From: Natrarchaeobius oligotrophus | GTDB lineage: Archaea; Halobacteriota; Halobacteria; Halobacteriales; Natrialbaceae | Assembly (NCBI RefSeq): GCF_003841465.1 | Contig: NZ_REFZ01000007.1 | Coordinates: 1-64,000 of the forward strand | Length of the DNA stretch: 64,000 nucleotides | Reading direction: 5' to 3' | Shown here: positions 6,481 through 61,261 of the stretch, in pieces | Layout: the number at the start of each line of letters is the position of its first letter | How positions within the stretch are numbered: position 1 is the stretch's first letter | Notes under the pieces: model-generated | Told to the model about the DNA's origin: nothing | The model's input: the letters and a program-made list of their open reading frames with translations, nothing else | The model's database searches: none | Made by a program: the position numbers and the translations under genes

Positions 6481-6620
6481 GGGTCTGGAGGGCAGTCGCG
6501 TTCGATGAGAGAACGTGGGGCATCTCCCAAGTCAGTTGCGGTCGGCGTCGTCGCGGGTCGTCGTTGTGGACCCTCGCTCGAAGTTCGGCCCACCGGCGGC
6601 GATCCGCGGCTCGACGACTC

Positions 6621-6701
6621 GTACGGATTGCTGTACCGATTTACCGGCGCACCTGCGACCCGGACGGCGGGTGCGCCGATACTGACGTACAGTAAACCGT
6701 A
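6621..6701 (-). repeat. Dispersed palindromic element, copy A (abuts stop codon)
   Basis: Outer arms TACGGATTGCTGTAC and GTACAGTAAACCGTA pair imperfectly, and an inner stem pairs CGGCGCACC with GGTGCGCCG. The element begins exactly after the TGA (6702-6704) of the TPP enzyme, reading in that gene's direction. The same layout recurs after TGA codons at 15422, 14686 (degenerate) and 59233. A role as 3' end or terminator element is an inference. Confidence 0.75.
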
Positions 6702-8396
6702 TCACTCGCGGAGGCGGACGTCGACGACGTCGACGCCGTCTCTAGCCAGCGCGTCCGCGAGCGCGGCCTCGATTTCGTCAGCCGTCTCGACGCGTTCCCC
6801 GCGAGCGCCGTAACTGCGAGCGCTGCGGACCGGATCGACCGCCGGATCGATGTCCGTGCCGACGACGTCCGACCGGTTCGACCCCAGCAGGGAGTTCGCG
6901 TTCTCCTCGAGCGCCCGGTAGCGGCGGTTGTTCGCGACGACGACCGTGAGGTCGATCCGCCGGCGAACCGCGCTGTAGATCGCCTGCGGATAGTAGTAGT
7001 ACGAACCGTCGCCGACGAACGCGATCACGTCACTCGACTCCCCGCGATCGCTCTCTGCGAGGGCCGCGCCGACGGCCGCCGGGAGTCCGTACCCCAGCCC
7101 GCCGCCCTTGTTCGAGACGTACTGCGTCGGCTCGAGCGGAACGCGTGACAACAGCGCGTGTTTCGCCGTGACGCTCTCGTCGACGACGAACGCGTCGGCG
7201 GCGACGCGCTCTATCGCCTCGACGAGGTCGTCGACCGTCGCCCGCCGGTCGCCGGGCCGACCGTTTCCGCTCGACGAGCCGCCCGCAGCCAGTTTCGTGG
7301 CGACGGTATCCGCGGTAGCGACGGCGTCTTCGAGCCGGTCCCGACGCTCGTCTTCCGGGAGCCGGGTCCGAACTCGCGTCGCGAGTTCGTCGAGGACGAC
7401 GCCCGGATCGCCGAGGATCGCCGCGTCGGCGGGGCGGTTCTTGCCGAGTTGCCAGGCGTCGGCTCCGAGGTGGATGCAGACCGTCCCCCGGTCGACGATC
7501 GGTTTCTCGTGACCCGTCACCGTCGCGTTCGTCGAACAGCCCGCGAAGACGATCGTCTCCGCGTCGAAGAGTCGCCGAGCGAGCTTCCCGTCCGGCGGAA
7601 CGTGCGAGACCCACTGGTCGTGCTCGGTCGGAAAGGCGACCTCGCTCGAGAGGATCTCGCCGTGGACCCGCGCGCCGGTCGCCTCCGCGAATTCGACCGC
7701 AGCGGCGACCGCGTTCCGCCCCGCTCGAGCGACGCCGTCGCCCACGACGAGCACCGGCCGATCGGCGGCGACGAGCAGCGTCGCCGCGCGCTCTAGCTGT
7801 GCGGGGTCGCCGCCGCCCGCGGTCGGAACGGGACCGAGACGCTCCGGCTCGTCGTCCGTCTCCGCGAGCAGAACGTCGAGCGGGAGTCCGAGAAAGACGG
7901 GGCCGGTCGGGGGCGTCGTCGCGACCCGAAACGCCCGTCGGAGCATCGTCGGGAGGGCGGCGACGTCGAGCACTTCGTCGGACCACGTGCAGTGTGCCGC
8001 CGCCGTCCGCGCGAGGTCGCCCGAGAGGATCGGCTCCTGGTGGCGAACGCCAGTCCCGTGGTTACCCGCGGTGACGACCAGCGGCGCGCCGGCCGCCGCC
8101 GCGCCGTGGAGGTTACCGAGCCCGTGGGCCAGGCCGGGCGCGACGTGCAGGTTCACGACGCCGACCGGCCGGATCGATTCGTCTTCCTGGGCGTGATAGC
8201 GCCGGGTCTGGGCGTAGCCGGCTGCCATCCCGACCGCCACGTCCTCGTGCAGTGCGAGCACGTACTCGAGATCAGTTTGGTCGATCGCCTCGAGTATCGG
8301 TAGCTCCGTCGTGCCCGGATTGCCGAAGACGTACTCGACGCCGTAGCGTTCGAGCGCGTCGACGAAGAGAGCTGCTCCAGTGGTCGAGGTAGTCAC
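6702..8396 (-). CDS. Thiamine-diphosphate enzyme (acetolactate synthase / benzoylformate decarboxylase-like)
   Basis: A 564-residue three-domain TPP enzyme. In the N-terminal Pyr domain the catalytic glutamate is Glu51 in ALHEDVAVGMAAGYA. The middle TPP_enzyme_M domain lies at about residues 190-330. The C-terminal PP domain has GDGSYYYYPQAIYSA followed by a VVVANN motif, the metal-TPP binding signature. Overall resemblance is to benzoylformate decarboxylase and IlvB-like proteins of catabolic type rather than biosynthetic acetolactate synthase: no small regulatory subunit lies nearby. The substrate is probably a 2-oxo acid; identity is not decidable here. It is monocistronic, with a palindromic element immediately after its TGA. 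Confidence 0.9.
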   Translation of the reverse strand: MTTSTTGAALFVDALERYGVEYVFGNPGTTELPILEAIDQTDLEYVLALHEDVAVGMAAGYAQTRRYHAQEDESIRPVGVVNLHVAPGLAHGLGNLHGAAAAGAPLVVTAGNHGTGVRHQEPILSGDLARTAAAHCTWSDEVLDVAALPTMLRRAFRVATTPPTGPVFLGLPLDVLLAETDDEPERLGPVPTAGGGDPAQLERAATLLVAADRPVLVVGDGVARAGRNAVAAAVEFAEATGARVHGEILSSEVAFPTEHDQWVSHVPPDGKLARRLFDAETIVFAGCSTNATVTGHEKPIVDRGTVCIHLGADAWQLGKNRPADAAILGDPGVVLDELATRVRTRLPEDERRDRLEDAVATADTVATKLAAGGSSSGNGRPGDRRATVDDLVEAIERVAADAFVVDESVTAKHALLSRVPLEPTQYVSNKGGGLGYGLPAAVGAALAESDRGESSDVIAFVGDGSYYYYPQAIYSAVRRRIDLTVVVANNRRYRALEENANSLLGSNRSDVVGTDIDPAVDPVRSARSYGARGERVETADEIEAALADALARDGVDVVDVRLRE

Positions 8397-8539: not shown

Positions 8540-9412
8540 ATGCCCCTCTCTCGACACGGGGCGGGCGTCGAGGCGACGGTCCGTGCGTTCTGGTCGCAGG
8601 TTCACCCCGTGTTTATGCTGCCGCCGCTCGCCGCGTCGCTGTTCGGCGCGATCCTCTCGGGTGAGGTCGCCCTCGAGCCAGCGGCGATTCACGTGCTCGC
8701 GATATTCGCGGCGGTGTACACGGCCCACGTCAAGGACGGGTACGTCGACTTCCACGTGCGGGGCGAAGACGACGACCATCCGCTCACGGCGACGGGGTGT
8801 CGGATCGGACTTACCCTCTCGACGATTGCGTTCGTCGCCTGCTGTCTCCTCCTGTGGGTGCTGGGCGCGCAGCTGGCGGTCGCGCTCACGCTGCCGACGT
8901 GGCTGATCGCCTACCACCACGCGCCTCAGCTGGATACGAACCCGCTGACGGCGACCACCGGCTACCCGCTCGGGATCGCACTCTCGATCCTCGGCGGCTT
9001 CGCGACCCAGGCCGGCACGGTAACGGCGCTCCCGCTCGGATTCGCCGCCGTTTTTCTCGTCCTGCTCTCGGGGATCAAAGTGATCGACGACGCACAGGAC
9101 TACGACTACGACCGATCGATCGCAAAGCGGACGGTCGCCGTCGTTCTCGGTCCGGAACGCGCCTACGACGTCGCGTACGGTCTGATGGCATTCGCGCTGG
9201 TCGCGGTCGTCGCCCTCGCGATCACTCGAGTGTTCCCGCCCGGCTCGGTGCTGGCGGTTCTCGCGTTCGCCGCGGTCGCCGCGGTCGCTCGCCGGGCGAA
9301 TCCCGAACTCGCGACGATGCTGCTGGTGAGGGGATCGTACGTGTTCCTCGCCGTCCTCGTCGCCGCCGTCTGGTTCGAACCGGTCGCCACGATCGGCGTT
9401 GCCACCGGCTGA
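8540..9412 (+). CDS. UbiA-family membrane prenyltransferase
   Basis: A 290-residue membrane protein with about eight to nine hydrophobic segments. Two aspartate-rich loops match the prenyl-diphosphate/Mg2+ sites of the UbiA superfamily: DGYVDFHVRGEDDDHP at about residues 58-73 and DDAQDYDYDRS at about 180-190. Members attach isoprenoid chains to aromatic or sugar-phosphate acceptors for quinone, heme or archaeal ether-lipid synthesis. Which acceptor this one uses is not clear. The start at 8540 is favoured by the TATA element at the leaderless distance. It is divergent from the TPP enzyme. The neighbours (a flavoprotein and a siderophore synthetase) do not define a pathway. Confidence 0.82.
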   Translation: MPLSRHGAGVEATVRAFWSQVHPVFMLPPLAASLFGAILSGEVALEPAAIHVLAIFAAVYTAHVKDGYVDFHVRGEDDDHPLTATGCRIGLTLSTIAFVACCLLLWVLGAQLAVALTLPTWLIAYHHAPQLDTNPLTATTGYPLGIALSILGGFATQAGTVTALPLGFAAVFLVLLSGIKVIDDAQDYDYDRSIAKRTVAVVLGPERAYDVAYGLMAFALVAVVALAITRVFPPGSVLAVLAFAAVAAVARRANPELATMLLVRGSYVFLAVLVAAVWFEPVATIGVATG

Positions 9413-9553
9413 TGCGGACCGCCGTCCGTCGTCGTCGTAACCGCGACCGTCCTGCGATCGCACCGGTACATCGAAACGGCACTCGTAGCGCGGAAAACCA
9501 CCCCGTCGAACGTTTTCGTCCAGTATATGTGTCCGCGGTACGCATCCCCGCGT

Positions 9554-14058: not shown

Positions 14059-14685
14059 GTGGCACAGCAACACCGTACTGACGAGTCCCGGCGGGTCGAC
14101 CGCGGCGAGGAAACCGACGCCGTCGACGACGCGCTCGAGGAGGACCTCTCGAAAGGCGAGATCTTCGAAGTCCTCCGCAATCAGCGACGACGGTACGTGC
14201 TCCACTACCTGAAACAGGACGGTCGTCCCGTCGAGCTGGGTGATCTCGCCCAGCAGGTCGCCGCCTGGGAGTACGAGACGACACTCGAGGGCGTCACGCC
14301 GGAACAGCGCAAACGAGTCTACACGACGCTCCAGCAGACGCACCTGCCGAAGATGGACGAGGCGGGCATCCTCGCGTTCGACTCGGACGCCGGACGCATC
14401 GAGGCGACCGATCGAACGCGGGACATCACCGTCTACCTCGAGATCGTGCCGGGCCACGAGTTCGCCTGGCGGGAGCTCTATCTCTCGCTGGGAGCCGTCG
14501 GCTGTGCGCTGGTCGCCGCGCTCTGGCTCGAGATCTATCCGCTGACGCTGCTGTCGGATCTGACCTGGGCGGGGATCGTCTCCGTGACGGTGACGGCCAC
14601 GGCGGTCGCACACATCTACTACGAACGGCAGATGCGCCTCGGTCGCGGCGAGCAACCGCCCGAACTCAGCTTCGGCGACGACTGA
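14059..14685 (+). CDS. Haloarchaeal HTH domain protein with two membrane segments
   Basis: A 208-residue protein. Residues about 30-115 form a winged-helix-like domain of the haloarchaeal type ([37 protein letters not shown]). Two hydrophobic segments at about 140-185 anchor the C-terminal part, which ends in an acidic tail. It probably acts as a membrane-tethered transcriptional regulator or sensor; no target is evident. The start is GTG at 14059, preceded by the purine-rich ggggggtgag. An in-frame TGA lies just upstream, so no longer form exists. A 26-codon ATG frame (14001-14081) overlaps the start in another frame. A degenerate palindromic element follows directly after the TGA. Confidence 0.75.
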
Positions 14686-14750
14686 GACGGATCGCTGTCC
14701 CGATGTACCGATCCGGCCACGAACCGTCAGCGATCGCGCCGACAGCGACG
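14686..14750 (+). repeat. Degenerate copy D of the stop-abutting palindromic element
   Basis: Directly after the TGA at 14683-14685 the sequence GACGGATCGCTGTC matches the left arm of the element, followed by GATGTACCG. TCGCTGTC (14692-14699) can pair with GACAGCGA (14741-14748). The inner GC stem of other copies is poorly conserved, so this is an eroded member. Confidence 0.45.
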
Positions 14751-14851
14751 GACGTCGAACGCGCCTCGCTCGTTTTCACCGCGGAGACGACGGGTACCGG
14801 ACGTCCCGCCCGGATCGTCAGCTTTTACTCGGACACCGACCGACCCACGAC

Positions 14852-15421
14852 ATGGATCAGTTAGAACGGTCGCTTCTCGAGGCTCCGATCGTGGAGAAAA
14901 ACGGCTACCACTACTTCGTCCACCCGATCAGCGACGGCGTTCCGAAGCTCGATCCGACCCTGTTGCGCGAGATCGTCATCCGAATCATCCGGAAGGCGAA
15001 ACTCGAGGAGGTCGATCGGATCGTCACCCCCGCCGCGATGGGGATCCACATCTCGACCGCGGTGTCGCTGATGACGGACATCCCGCTGACGGTCATCCGC
15101 AAGCGACAGTACGGTCTCGAAGGCGAGGTCGCGATCTCCCAGGAGACCGGCTACTCGGAAAACGAGATGTACATCAACGACGTTCGCGAGGGCGAACGCG
15201 TGCTCGTCCTCGACGACGTGCTCTCGACGGGCGGCACGCTCGCGTCCGTTCTCGAGGCGCTCGACGAAATCGGCGCGGAGGTCGTCGACACGGTCGCGGT
15301 GATCAAGAAAGTCGGTGGCGAGAACAAAGTCGACGACGCCGGCTACGACGTCAAGACGCTGATCAACGTCGACGTCGTCGACGGCGAGGTCGTCATCGTC
15401 GACGAGAACGGCGATTCCTGA
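14852..15421 (+). CDS. hpt: Hypoxanthine/guanine-type purine phosphoribosyltransferase
   Basis: A 189-residue type I phosphoribosyltransferase that joins a purine base to PRPP in salvage. The PRPP-binding loop is [14 protein letters not shown] at about residues 117-130. [14 protein letters not shown] and [12 protein letters not shown] match archaeal Hpt/Apt-like proteins. The length is right for the archaeal HGPRTase group. Base preference (hypoxanthine/guanine versus adenine) is inferred from family resemblance only. The ATG at 14852 gives [19 protein letters not shown], a typical start. The TGA is followed directly by palindromic copy B, which separates it from the ABC transporter operon. 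Confidence 0.88.
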
Positions 15422-15502
15422 GACGGGGTACTGCACGTCAGTTCCGGCGCACCCGCGACACGGGCGGCGGGTGCACCGGTACGTCGGTGCAGTAATCCGT
15501 AC
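15422..15502 (+). repeat. Dispersed palindromic element, copy B (abuts stop codon)
   Basis: Immediately after the hpt TGA, GACGGGGTACTGCAC pairs with GTGCAGTAATCCGTAC, and the inner CCGGCGCACCC pairs with GGGTGCACCGG with one mismatch. The layout is the same as at 6621-6701 and 59153-59233. Confidence 0.72.
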
Positions 15503-37170: not shown

Positions 37171-37318
37171 ACGAGACGTTTTCGTTCCGGACCGTTTCGT
37201 CCAGCGGCGTGATAGGACCTGTTGTCCGTCGTCGCCGATAGGACCGCGAACCGTCCGCGCTTGCACCGCCACGTCGAGACGGCGATCCGTACGAGTCGTC
37301 GGACGTCGCAACGACCGA

Positions 37319-58994: not shown

Positions 58995-59071
58995 CGTACC
59001 CCTGCATGATTGATAGAACCCAAAAGCCTTCCGGCAGTTTAATTCGGAACGTTCAGGAAGAAACGACAGTC

Positions 59072-59150
59072 AGACGGTCCGTTGTGCGCCAGGACCGGCG
59101 CAATCGCGACAGTCCGGGATTGCACCGGCAAATCGTCACAGCAGACCGTC
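59072..59150 (-). repeat. Palindromic element copy C1, head-to-head with C2
   Basis: Read on the minus strand, this copy shows GACGGTCTGCTGTG, then ACGATTTGCCGG, then an inner stem CCGGTGCAATC / GATTGCGCCGG with one mismatch, matching the left half and the inner stem of C2. It lies next to and opposite copy C2. Confidence 0.6.
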
Positions 59151-59152
59151 TC

Positions 59153-59233
59153 ATACGGATTGCTGTAACGATTTACCGGCGCAACCGCCGCATGGATCGC
59201 GGTTGCGCCGGAAATGACTTACAGTAAACCGTC
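59153..59233 (-). repeat. Palindromic element copy C2 (abuts spoVR stop codon)
   Basis: ATACGGATTGCTGTAA and TTACAGTAAACCGT form the outer arms, and the inner stem CCGGCGCAACCGC / GCGGTTGCGCCGG is a perfect 13-bp inverted repeat around a short loop. The element runs up to the TGA (59234-59236) of the SpoVR-type gene. It is the best-conserved copy in the window. Confidence 0.78.
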
Positions 59234-61261
59234 TCAGGCCAGCCACTCGTCGGGTTTCGTGTCGTAATCGACGTCGTCGGCGGCGAGGTGGTCGACCTCC
59301 TCCCACGGAACGTCCGTGATACTGACCTCCTCACCGTCGTAGCGGATCAGCTTCCCTCGTTCTTTCGCTTCGGGTTCGCGGTTGCGCCGCTTTGCGACCT
59401 CGACGTCGTGTTCGTCGACTTCCTTGACGATCGTCAGCAGGTTGACCGGTCGCCCCCAGAGTTCGAAGATTCGCTTCAACGTTTCTCGAGCCTGGCCCAG
59501 ATCGAGGACGACGCCGTTGTACTGGTGGCCAAGCAGCAGTTCGTTCGCGTTGTTGTAGTTGCCGTCGTACACCGCGATCGTCGGCTTGCCGAAGTTGGTG
59601 AACTGCAACAGCAGCTTCTTTTTGACGTCCTCGGCGGCGTCGCTCGCGACGTGGAACTGGCCGGTCGCCTTCGAGTGTTCGTAGGTGAAGTAGTTGTTCT
59701 CCGTGATGAACTCCTGGGTGAGAAACTCGTCCAGGAACGTCACGTCGTTGTGGCTCTCTCTGACGTCGAACATCCGATCCCATCCCGCGGTGACGTCGAC
59801 GTCCGAGAGCGCCTCCTCGACCGAGGAGTACCGGGCGTCGTCGAAGAGATACCGACCGATTCGCTCGAGTTCGCTCTGGCTCACCCGCGCGAGGAAGCCG
59901 CGGTTCTGGCGCTTGACGAGCGAGTAGTGTCGCCGGGCCAGCCCCTCGTAGGTGAGCACCTTCCAGGGGTATCGATCGACGTCGATCTCGCCGTTGCGGG
60001 CCGCTTCGAGCGCCTCTCTATCGACCCATTCGTTCGGAACCTCCTCGAGTTCGTCGAGCGTTTCGGCGGTGACCGCGGCGATGGCCTCCGGCGGCTCGAG
60101 CGTCTCGAGCACCTCGTCGAAGTCGACGACGTCGGTGAGGTTGCGCCAGGAGATCCCCTCCACGCGGAGCAATCGCTCGAGGACCTCGCGGCGGTTCGTG
60201 GTGTTCTCGGCGTACTCCCACAGCTCGAAGCCGAGGCTGTAGGGGTTGAGGCCGGGCGATCCGAGCACCCGTGCCATGTGATCGGCGTAGTCGATGACCT
60301 CGTCGGATTCGGCGAACCCCTCGTCGGTCATCATCTTCGACTCCCAGTAGGCGGCCCAGCCTTCGTTCATCACCTTCGTCATCTTCTGGGCGGCGAAGTA
60401 GTACGCCTCCGCTCGCATCATATCGAGGACGTCCCGTTGCCACTCCGTCATCTCGACGGCGCGCTCGGACTCCCCGTCGTACCGCTTGCCGTGTTCGCGG
60501 ACGAACGCGAGGAGGTCCTTCTGTGGCTCCTCCGGGAACGTCACCGCCGCGTCTTCGGCCTCGAGTTTTTCGAGCCACTCGTCGTCGAACACCTCCCCTT
60601 TGATCTCGTCGGAAAGTTCGAGCTCGTCCAGTTTGTCGGCGAGATCCTCGTCGATCTCGCCGTCCGGGCCCTCGACCTCGAGGCGGCGCTGGAACACCCG
60701 GTGCTGGTCGATGTTGTCCTCGAGCGAGAGGCAGTGGTCGATCCACTTTTCGACCTCGGCGCGGTCGATCTCCGGGTCGGACATGTACTCGTCGATCGCC
60801 CGGGCGTGGCGCTCGAGCATGGCGGCGGCGTTGACCTGGTCGTCGTCCGTGCGTCCGCTCGTGAAGAGGCCGAACCACTCGTTGTTCGCGAAGAAATCGG
60901 AGTGGGCCTCGACGTGGGTGATCACCGCCTTCTGGTCGGCGAGCGTGTTCGACTCCTGGAGGAAGGCGTGGGCCGGGTTGTCGTTGTTGACGATCTCGAA
61001 CGCTTTCCCGCCGCCGTACTGGCCCTGTTTCTGCTGGCGGTCGTACTGCATTCCCCACCGCCAGTGGGGATAGCGCGACTGGAATCCGCCGTAGGCGATG
61101 AGTTCGTTCATCTCGTCGTAGTCGATGATCCAGTATTTGACCGGGTACGGCTCGAGGCCGAGCTTTTCGGCCAGATTGCGAGCTTCGGAGACCGGCTCTT
61201 CCAGTTCGCTGGCGATCGCTTGCTTGCGGTATCGGTCGGCGTTGGAGTTCGTCTTGCTCAT
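59234..61261 (-). CDS. spoVR: SpoVR-family protein
   Basis: A 675-residue protein, full length for the SpoVR/YcgB family. Highlights are YWIIDYDEMNELIAYGGFQS, YPHWRWGMQYDRQQKQ, HVEAHSDFFANNEWF, NEGWAAYWESKMM, and PYSLGFELWEYAENTTNRRE. The function is unknown; in bacteria it is co-regulated with PrkA and YeaH during starvation. The ATG at 61261 is preferred over a GTG nine bases upstream. It follows the YhbH-type gene by 45 nt, in a prkA-yhbH-spoVR order seen in many bacteria and haloarchaea. Confidence 0.95.
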   Translation of the reverse strand: MSKTNSNADRYRKQAIASELEEPVSEARNLAEKLGLEPYPVKYWIIDYDEMNELIAYGGFQSRYPHWRWGMQYDRQQKQGQYGGGKAFEIVNNDNPAHAFLQESNTLADQKAVITHVEAHSDFFANNEWFGLFTSGRTDDDQVNAAAMLERHARAIDEYMSDPEIDRAEVEKWIDHCLSLEDNIDQHRVFQRRLEVEGPDGEIDEDLADKLDELELSDEIKGEVFDDEWLEKLEAEDAAVTFPEEPQKDLLAFVREHGKRYDGESERAVEMTEWQRDVLDMMRAEAYYFAAQKMTKVMNEGWAAYWESKMMTDEGFAESDEVIDYADHMARVLGSPGLNPYSLGFELWEYAENTTNRREVLERLLRVEGISWRNLTDVVDFDEVLETLEPPEAIAAVTAETLDELEEVPNEWVDREALEAARNGEIDVDRYPWKVLTYEGLARRHYSLVKRQNRGFLARVSQSELERIGRYLFDDARYSSVEEALSDVDVTAGWDRMFDVRESHNDVTFLDEFLTQEFITENNYFTYEHSKATGQFHVASDAAEDVKKKLLLQFTNFGKPTIAVYDGNYNNANELLLGHQYNGVVLDLGQARETLKRIFELWGRPVNLLTIVKEVDEHDVEVAKRRNREPEAKERGKLIRYDGEEVSITDVPWEEVDHLAADDVDYDTKPDEWLA

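Follow-up and report, generated by a model that had tools for sequence, protein, structure and literature searches.

Do the palindromic sequences that recur directly after TGA stop codons in this part of the Natrarchaeobius oligotrophus genome serve the 3' ends of the genes they follow, or do they mark the preferred target of something that inserts there? The initial annotation of the window, i.e., the whole stretch of 64,000 nucleotides analyzed here, had proposed both readings for four copies (6621–6701, 14686–14750, 15422–15502, and 59153–59233) lying directly after the TGA of unrelated genes. This position was confirmed on the gene strand for all four copies, and the genes concerned, encoding a TPP enzyme, a DUF7344 protein, a phosphoribosyltransferase, and a SpoVR-like protein, respectively, are indeed unrelated.

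The copy at 6622–6701 (+ strand; 95.2 bits with a covariance model that was built from 36 copies and used to scan genomes) shows K-ACGG..CCGT-M ends and follows the TPP-enzyme gene, which is on the minus strand; the TGA stop of this gene (6702–6704, − strand) is the gene-side copy of the target duplication, and the far flank at 6619–6621, TCG, was read as a decayed TCA. Likewise, the copy at 15422–15501 (− strand, 95.7 bits), located after the TGA (15419–15421) of the phosphoribosyltransferase gene, has a distal CGA that was read as a decayed TGA. The duplication is intact around the copy at 59154–59233 (+ strand, 100.2 bits), found after the minus-strand SpoVR-like gene (stop at 59234–59236), with TCA at both 59151–59153 and 59234–59236. 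The degraded copy after the TGA (14683–14685) of the DUF7344 gene spans 14686–14763 (+ strand, 28.8 bits). Three older copies were missing from the initial list: a tandem copy at 59073–59150 (− strand, 52.1 bits), which shares the TCA spacer at 59151–59153 with its neighbor and is bounded by an outer duplication TCA at 59070–59072; a degraded one at 9413–9487 (− strand, 33.7 bits), directly after the TGA (9410–9412) of a UbiA-like gene (8540–9412); and another degraded one at 37213–37291 (− strand, 24.5 bits), at an intergenic TGA (37210–37212) that is not the stop of any called gene. Nothing in the window scored above the gathering score of a family in Rfam 15.

Copies were also seen at the stops of two of these genes in other genera. 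The phosphoribosyltransferase gene of Natronolimnohabitans innermongolicus is followed by a copy whose stop and orientation agree with those in the window (L051:3559–3640), and which may derive either from shared descent or from repeated insertion. In another genus (L283, genome G015), a copy likewise abuts the TGA of the orthologue of the TPP-enzyme gene (6702–8396 in the window), and this gene has no copy after its stop in genomes G020 and G007.

The element is a non-coding, imperfect palindrome of about 80 bp with inverted ends KACGG...CCGTM and the consensus TACGGATTGCTGTACCGATGTACCGGCGCACCCGCCGCCCGGGTCGCGGGTGCGCCGGAACTGACGTACAGTAAACCGTA. Among 82 distinct copies, positions 6/75 (A.A) and 16–19/62–65 (C.C, G.A, A.G, T.T) are unpaired in nearly all, and pair 22/59 (A.A) is mostly unpaired; owing to these conserved mismatches, the two ends of the palindrome remain distinguishable. 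Both orientations of the 10-nt apex are frequent in the family. In G015, for instance, the copies L139:1501–1580 and L156:1501–1580 are identical over the 70 nt of their arms and have exactly inverted apices, an inversion that could be explained by template switching or by a cruciform state. Covariation is present in the stem among copies; it does not by itself demonstrate an RNA function, since template switching or hairpin transposition would also keep the arms complementary. Some copies contain an extra repeat of 15–21 bp of one arm, e.g., TACGGTTTACTGTCA-TACGGTTTACTGT... (L231:232–360, L239:553–650, L242:513–607, and L245:249–369), and the L242 copy has an outer duplication TTA/TTA. One-ended events or arm slippage are possible sources of these extra repeats.

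The flanks of the copies were then compared. Among 189 distinct copies, TGA/TGA was found 69 times, TCA/TCA 55 times, TAA/TAA twice, and TTA/TTA once, and mixed TGA/TCA flanks were seen in only six. Identical flanks were present in 130 of the 189 copies, compared with at most 83 in 10,000 shuffles. The flanking repeat is exactly 3 bp long in 116 of the 148 full-length copies and never reaches 4 bp or more; intact duplications are restricted to TGA, TCA, TAA, and TTA, the exceptions being decayed flanks. The repeats have a direct, not an inverted, orientation, which identifies them as a target duplication and not as a part of the palindrome.

Filled and empty sites gave the same picture. The end of the SpoVR gene reads TGA-element-TGA-element-TGA-CTGTCGTTTC in the host and TGA-CTCTCGTTTC or similar in genomes of the same genus, with no element in any of the seven relatives compared, and deleting a copy together with one TGA restores the ancestral site. 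In addition, four copies were found inside other copies in genome G016 (L240:604–683, L246:218–297, L247:303–382, and L233:5504–5583), at the internal TGTCA|GTC of an arm, so that the element carries its own target; when the inner copy and one TCA are removed, the outer copy becomes a contiguous match again. Insertions were found in both orientations. The insertion preference suggested by the initial annotation is thus borne out by the 3-bp TGA duplication, the filled and empty orthologous sites, the nested copies, and the TGA-containing motif. Its wording of the target as TGA-ACGG-like was right as regards TGA, but ACGG belongs to the end of the element itself, even if newer copies are sometimes inserted next to older ones. 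We therefore conclude, with a probability of about 0.88, that the repeats belong to a non-autonomous, MITE-like family of mobile elements with a TNA target, mobilized in trans by a candidate transposase.

The family is large, and its recurrence far exceeds what chance would give. The host genome (Natrialbaceae, as judged from its relatives; 4.61 Mb, 69 contigs) contains about 95 distinct copies and its relatives from tens to at least 150 per genome; in G015, at least 150 places were counted, a palindromic copy being able to count on both strands. Runs of identical copies in this genome indicate recent bursts of transposition. Matches (E ≤ 1e-6) were obtained in 33 of the 117 genomes sampled from the order; these genomes belong to 20 of the 49 sampled genera and cover at least eight families of Halobacteriales. 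Similar sequences occur on plasmids of Natrinema, Natrialba magadii, Natronorubrum, Natronococcus, Halococcus, Halostella, Salinibaculum, and Haloarcula sinaiiensis, and no copy was found in viral contigs (exact-pattern search) or phage collections. Divergent subfamilies with TACGGAYTGTTGTARC.. ends, of equal overall size and flanked by TCA/TGA, were observed in G015, Salinibaculum, and Haloarcula (L228:327–405, L243:73–144, L225:2505–2582, and L223:3005–3084). The literature searched, i.e., the main texts of papers available without subscription, held no description of these arms or of a haloarchaeal repeat targeted to stop codons, and this abundant family of palindromes of about 80 bp is apparently undescribed there.

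How does a mobile element come to lie so often at stop codons? Reconstructed empty sites have a consensus of approximately CGAC-TGA-GWCG, nearly palindromic as CGACTSAGTCG, and its 5' half, CGAC-TGA, is also found at copies away from stops. Stops were assigned from gene calls, which cover 87% of the window. Placement exactly after TGA, as described in the initial annotation, held for the four copies listed there but for only about half genome-wide: 47 of 95 copies in the host genome and 38 of 94 in the relatives are exactly at a stop codon, the others being at an intergenic TGA or TCA. When only copies with intact duplications were considered, 61 of 127 (48%) were at a gene's own stop, compared with 7.8% expected for random intergenic TGA/TCA and 32.9% expected from a motif learned from non-stop copies only. 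The excess over the motif prediction (48% vs. 33%, p = 3e-4) is modest; selection could contribute to it, as could genes missed by the calls or insertion next to older copies that themselves follow a stop. Random placement over intergenic and coding DNA was not observed, given this excess at stops and a single copy of 189 inside a gene. Since the motif would place 51% of insertions in genes, insertions there are purged or avoided.

The choice among stop codons was also informative. Stop-adjacent copies follow TGA in 84 cases, TAA in one, and TAG in none, with a control stop usage of 205 TGA vs. 79 TAA, which points to recognition of the DNA sequence and not of translation. An insertion coupled to translation termination, through the ribosome or a release factor, would account for the frequency of stops (48% against 8% for random intergenic TGA/TCA), but it is extremely unlikely, as TAG is never used and TAA almost never, the CGAC-TGA half-motif also occurs at non-stop copies, and copies enter other copies at the same motif. 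With a mobile element that recognizes DNA, three circumstances would favor stop codons: TGA forms the core of the target and is also the stop used most often here, many genes have GAC just ahead of the stop (acidic C-termini), and insertions elsewhere in genes would be removed by purging. As the TGA is duplicated upon insertion, the gene keeps its own TGA stop, so that insertion there is close to harmless.

A different explanation of the same positions is that selection keeps the element after stops because it works as a 3'-end signal, either as a terminator or as an mRNA-stabilizing hairpin, and that mobility is only the mode of spread. The hairpins of the four well-preserved copies of the window have predicted folding energies of −42 to −50 kcal/mol (z about −5), and such strong structures directly after stops, the excess of stops beyond the motif prediction, and the two genes whose stop is also followed by a copy in another genus would agree with this explanation; these same-stop copies could equally result from a good target having been used more than once or from shared descent. 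However, half of the copies are away from stops, the element is missing from orthologous genes, no copy follows a TAG stop, and many copies decay, such as those at 14686 and 9413 in the window. The arm adjoining the stop was the A-arm in 52 cases and the T-arm in 33 (p = 0.05), which is a near-random orientation, and the share of convergent gene pairs equals that of the controls (28/83 vs. 70/236, p = 0.49). The consensus also lacks the conserved T-tract expected of an archaeal intrinsic terminator. The tests of orientation, convergent pairs, and stop usage thus gave no sign of a selected 3'-end role, and the 3'-end function put forward in the initial annotation is very unlikely to be the cause of the placement. 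In a transcript, a copy would fold into a strong hairpin just downstream of the stop, which is probably a side effect, and a secondary effect of this predicted hairpin on mRNA 3' ends is possible.

For the trans-mobilized element preferred here, a candidate transposase would cut TNA (TGA/TCA in almost all cases) with a stagger of 3 nt, inside the roughly palindromic CGAC-TGA-GWCG target. Because of the TNA rule combined with an exclusively 3-bp repeat, this enzyme may be of the DDE type, perhaps of the IS1031/IS5 type, since TNA targets and 3-bp repeats also characterize the IS1031 group within the IS5 family (PMC12016507). No autonomous partner was detected among the lone arms that do not continue as the short element. 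Inspection of PF01609, PF13586, and PF13359 transposase loci revealed neither KACGG ends nor matching TNA-flanked inverted repeats, and among the genes recurring near copies, the most recurrent "ORF" appears to be a translation of the element itself. The element was not assigned to IS5/IS1031, since no matching transposase with its terminal repeats was present among the inspected PF01609, PF13586, and PF13359 loci.

Two features are surprising in an ordinary MITE, namely the strict conservation of the mismatches and the flipping of the apex. They might belong to a new archaeal class of mobile hairpins, in which a stand-alone enzyme would read the folded palindrome through the C.C/G.A/A.G/T.T mismatches, a cruciform or hairpin state would flip the apex, and insertion would take place at GAC|TGA, also within the element's own copies, with stops as safe harbors; we put this forward as a tentative and rather doubtful proposal. 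The same two features suggest that a folded form is recognized or passed through, as would be the case if an HUH enzyme (Y1, IS200/IS605 or REP/RAYT-like) mobilized the hairpin in the form of a folded single strand. This is unlikely, given that IS605-type elements and PATEs have no target duplication (PMC3119063), whereas the present element has one of 3 bp.

A trans-mobilized element that targets TGA within a gene-end motif and duplicates the stop would have found a simple route for living in a gene-dense genome. The enzyme that would move a folded 80-bp palindrome is, in our opinion, the most interesting part, and the recent identical copies, the self-nesting, and the flipping apex mean that culturable haloarchaea could be used to test both the transposase and the way in which it deals with a folded substrate. 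As for genome annotation, many genes are followed by about 80 nt of such a hairpin, which should not be taken for a terminator by default.

Several known systems share part of these properties. The MIRUs of mycobacteria are short repeats that, like the present element, insert at a gene's TGA and duplicate the stop region; they differ from it in that they sit at coupled operon junctions and are not known to be palindromic. REP elements are, like the family described here, extragenic palindromes with many copies, but they are 20–40 bp long with GTAG or CGTC tags (PMC3733652), whereas the element is 80 bp long and has a TGA duplication. PATEs and IS605-type elements resemble it in being palindromic and haloarchaeal; PATEs, however, have neither inverted ends nor a target duplication (PMC3119063), and the PATE, IS200/IS605, and REP/RAYT systems lack such a duplication and insert beside a fixed tetra- or pentanucleotide, in contrast to the 3-bp duplication seen here. 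The small mobile repeats (SMRs) of Haloquadratum walsbyi, e.g., the 80-bp HqIRS41, are likewise haloarchaeal, 80–110 bp long, with inverted ends and no known transposase, and insert into other mobile repeats; they are reported to lack a target duplication (PMC3119063), and it is on this published description that the element, which has one of 3 bp, is set apart from the SMRs (HqIRS40–43/55). MITEs are the nearest kind. The element differs from usual MITEs in that the whole of it is one quasi-palindrome with conserved mismatches, in its strong stop-codon bias, and in having no autonomous partner with the same ends among the transposase families searched. It is MITE-like in being short and non-coding, with inverted ends, many copies, and a fixed 3-bp target duplication, and it shares the 3-bp TNA duplication with elements that target TNA, such as IS5-family elements of the IS1031 group (PMC12016507).
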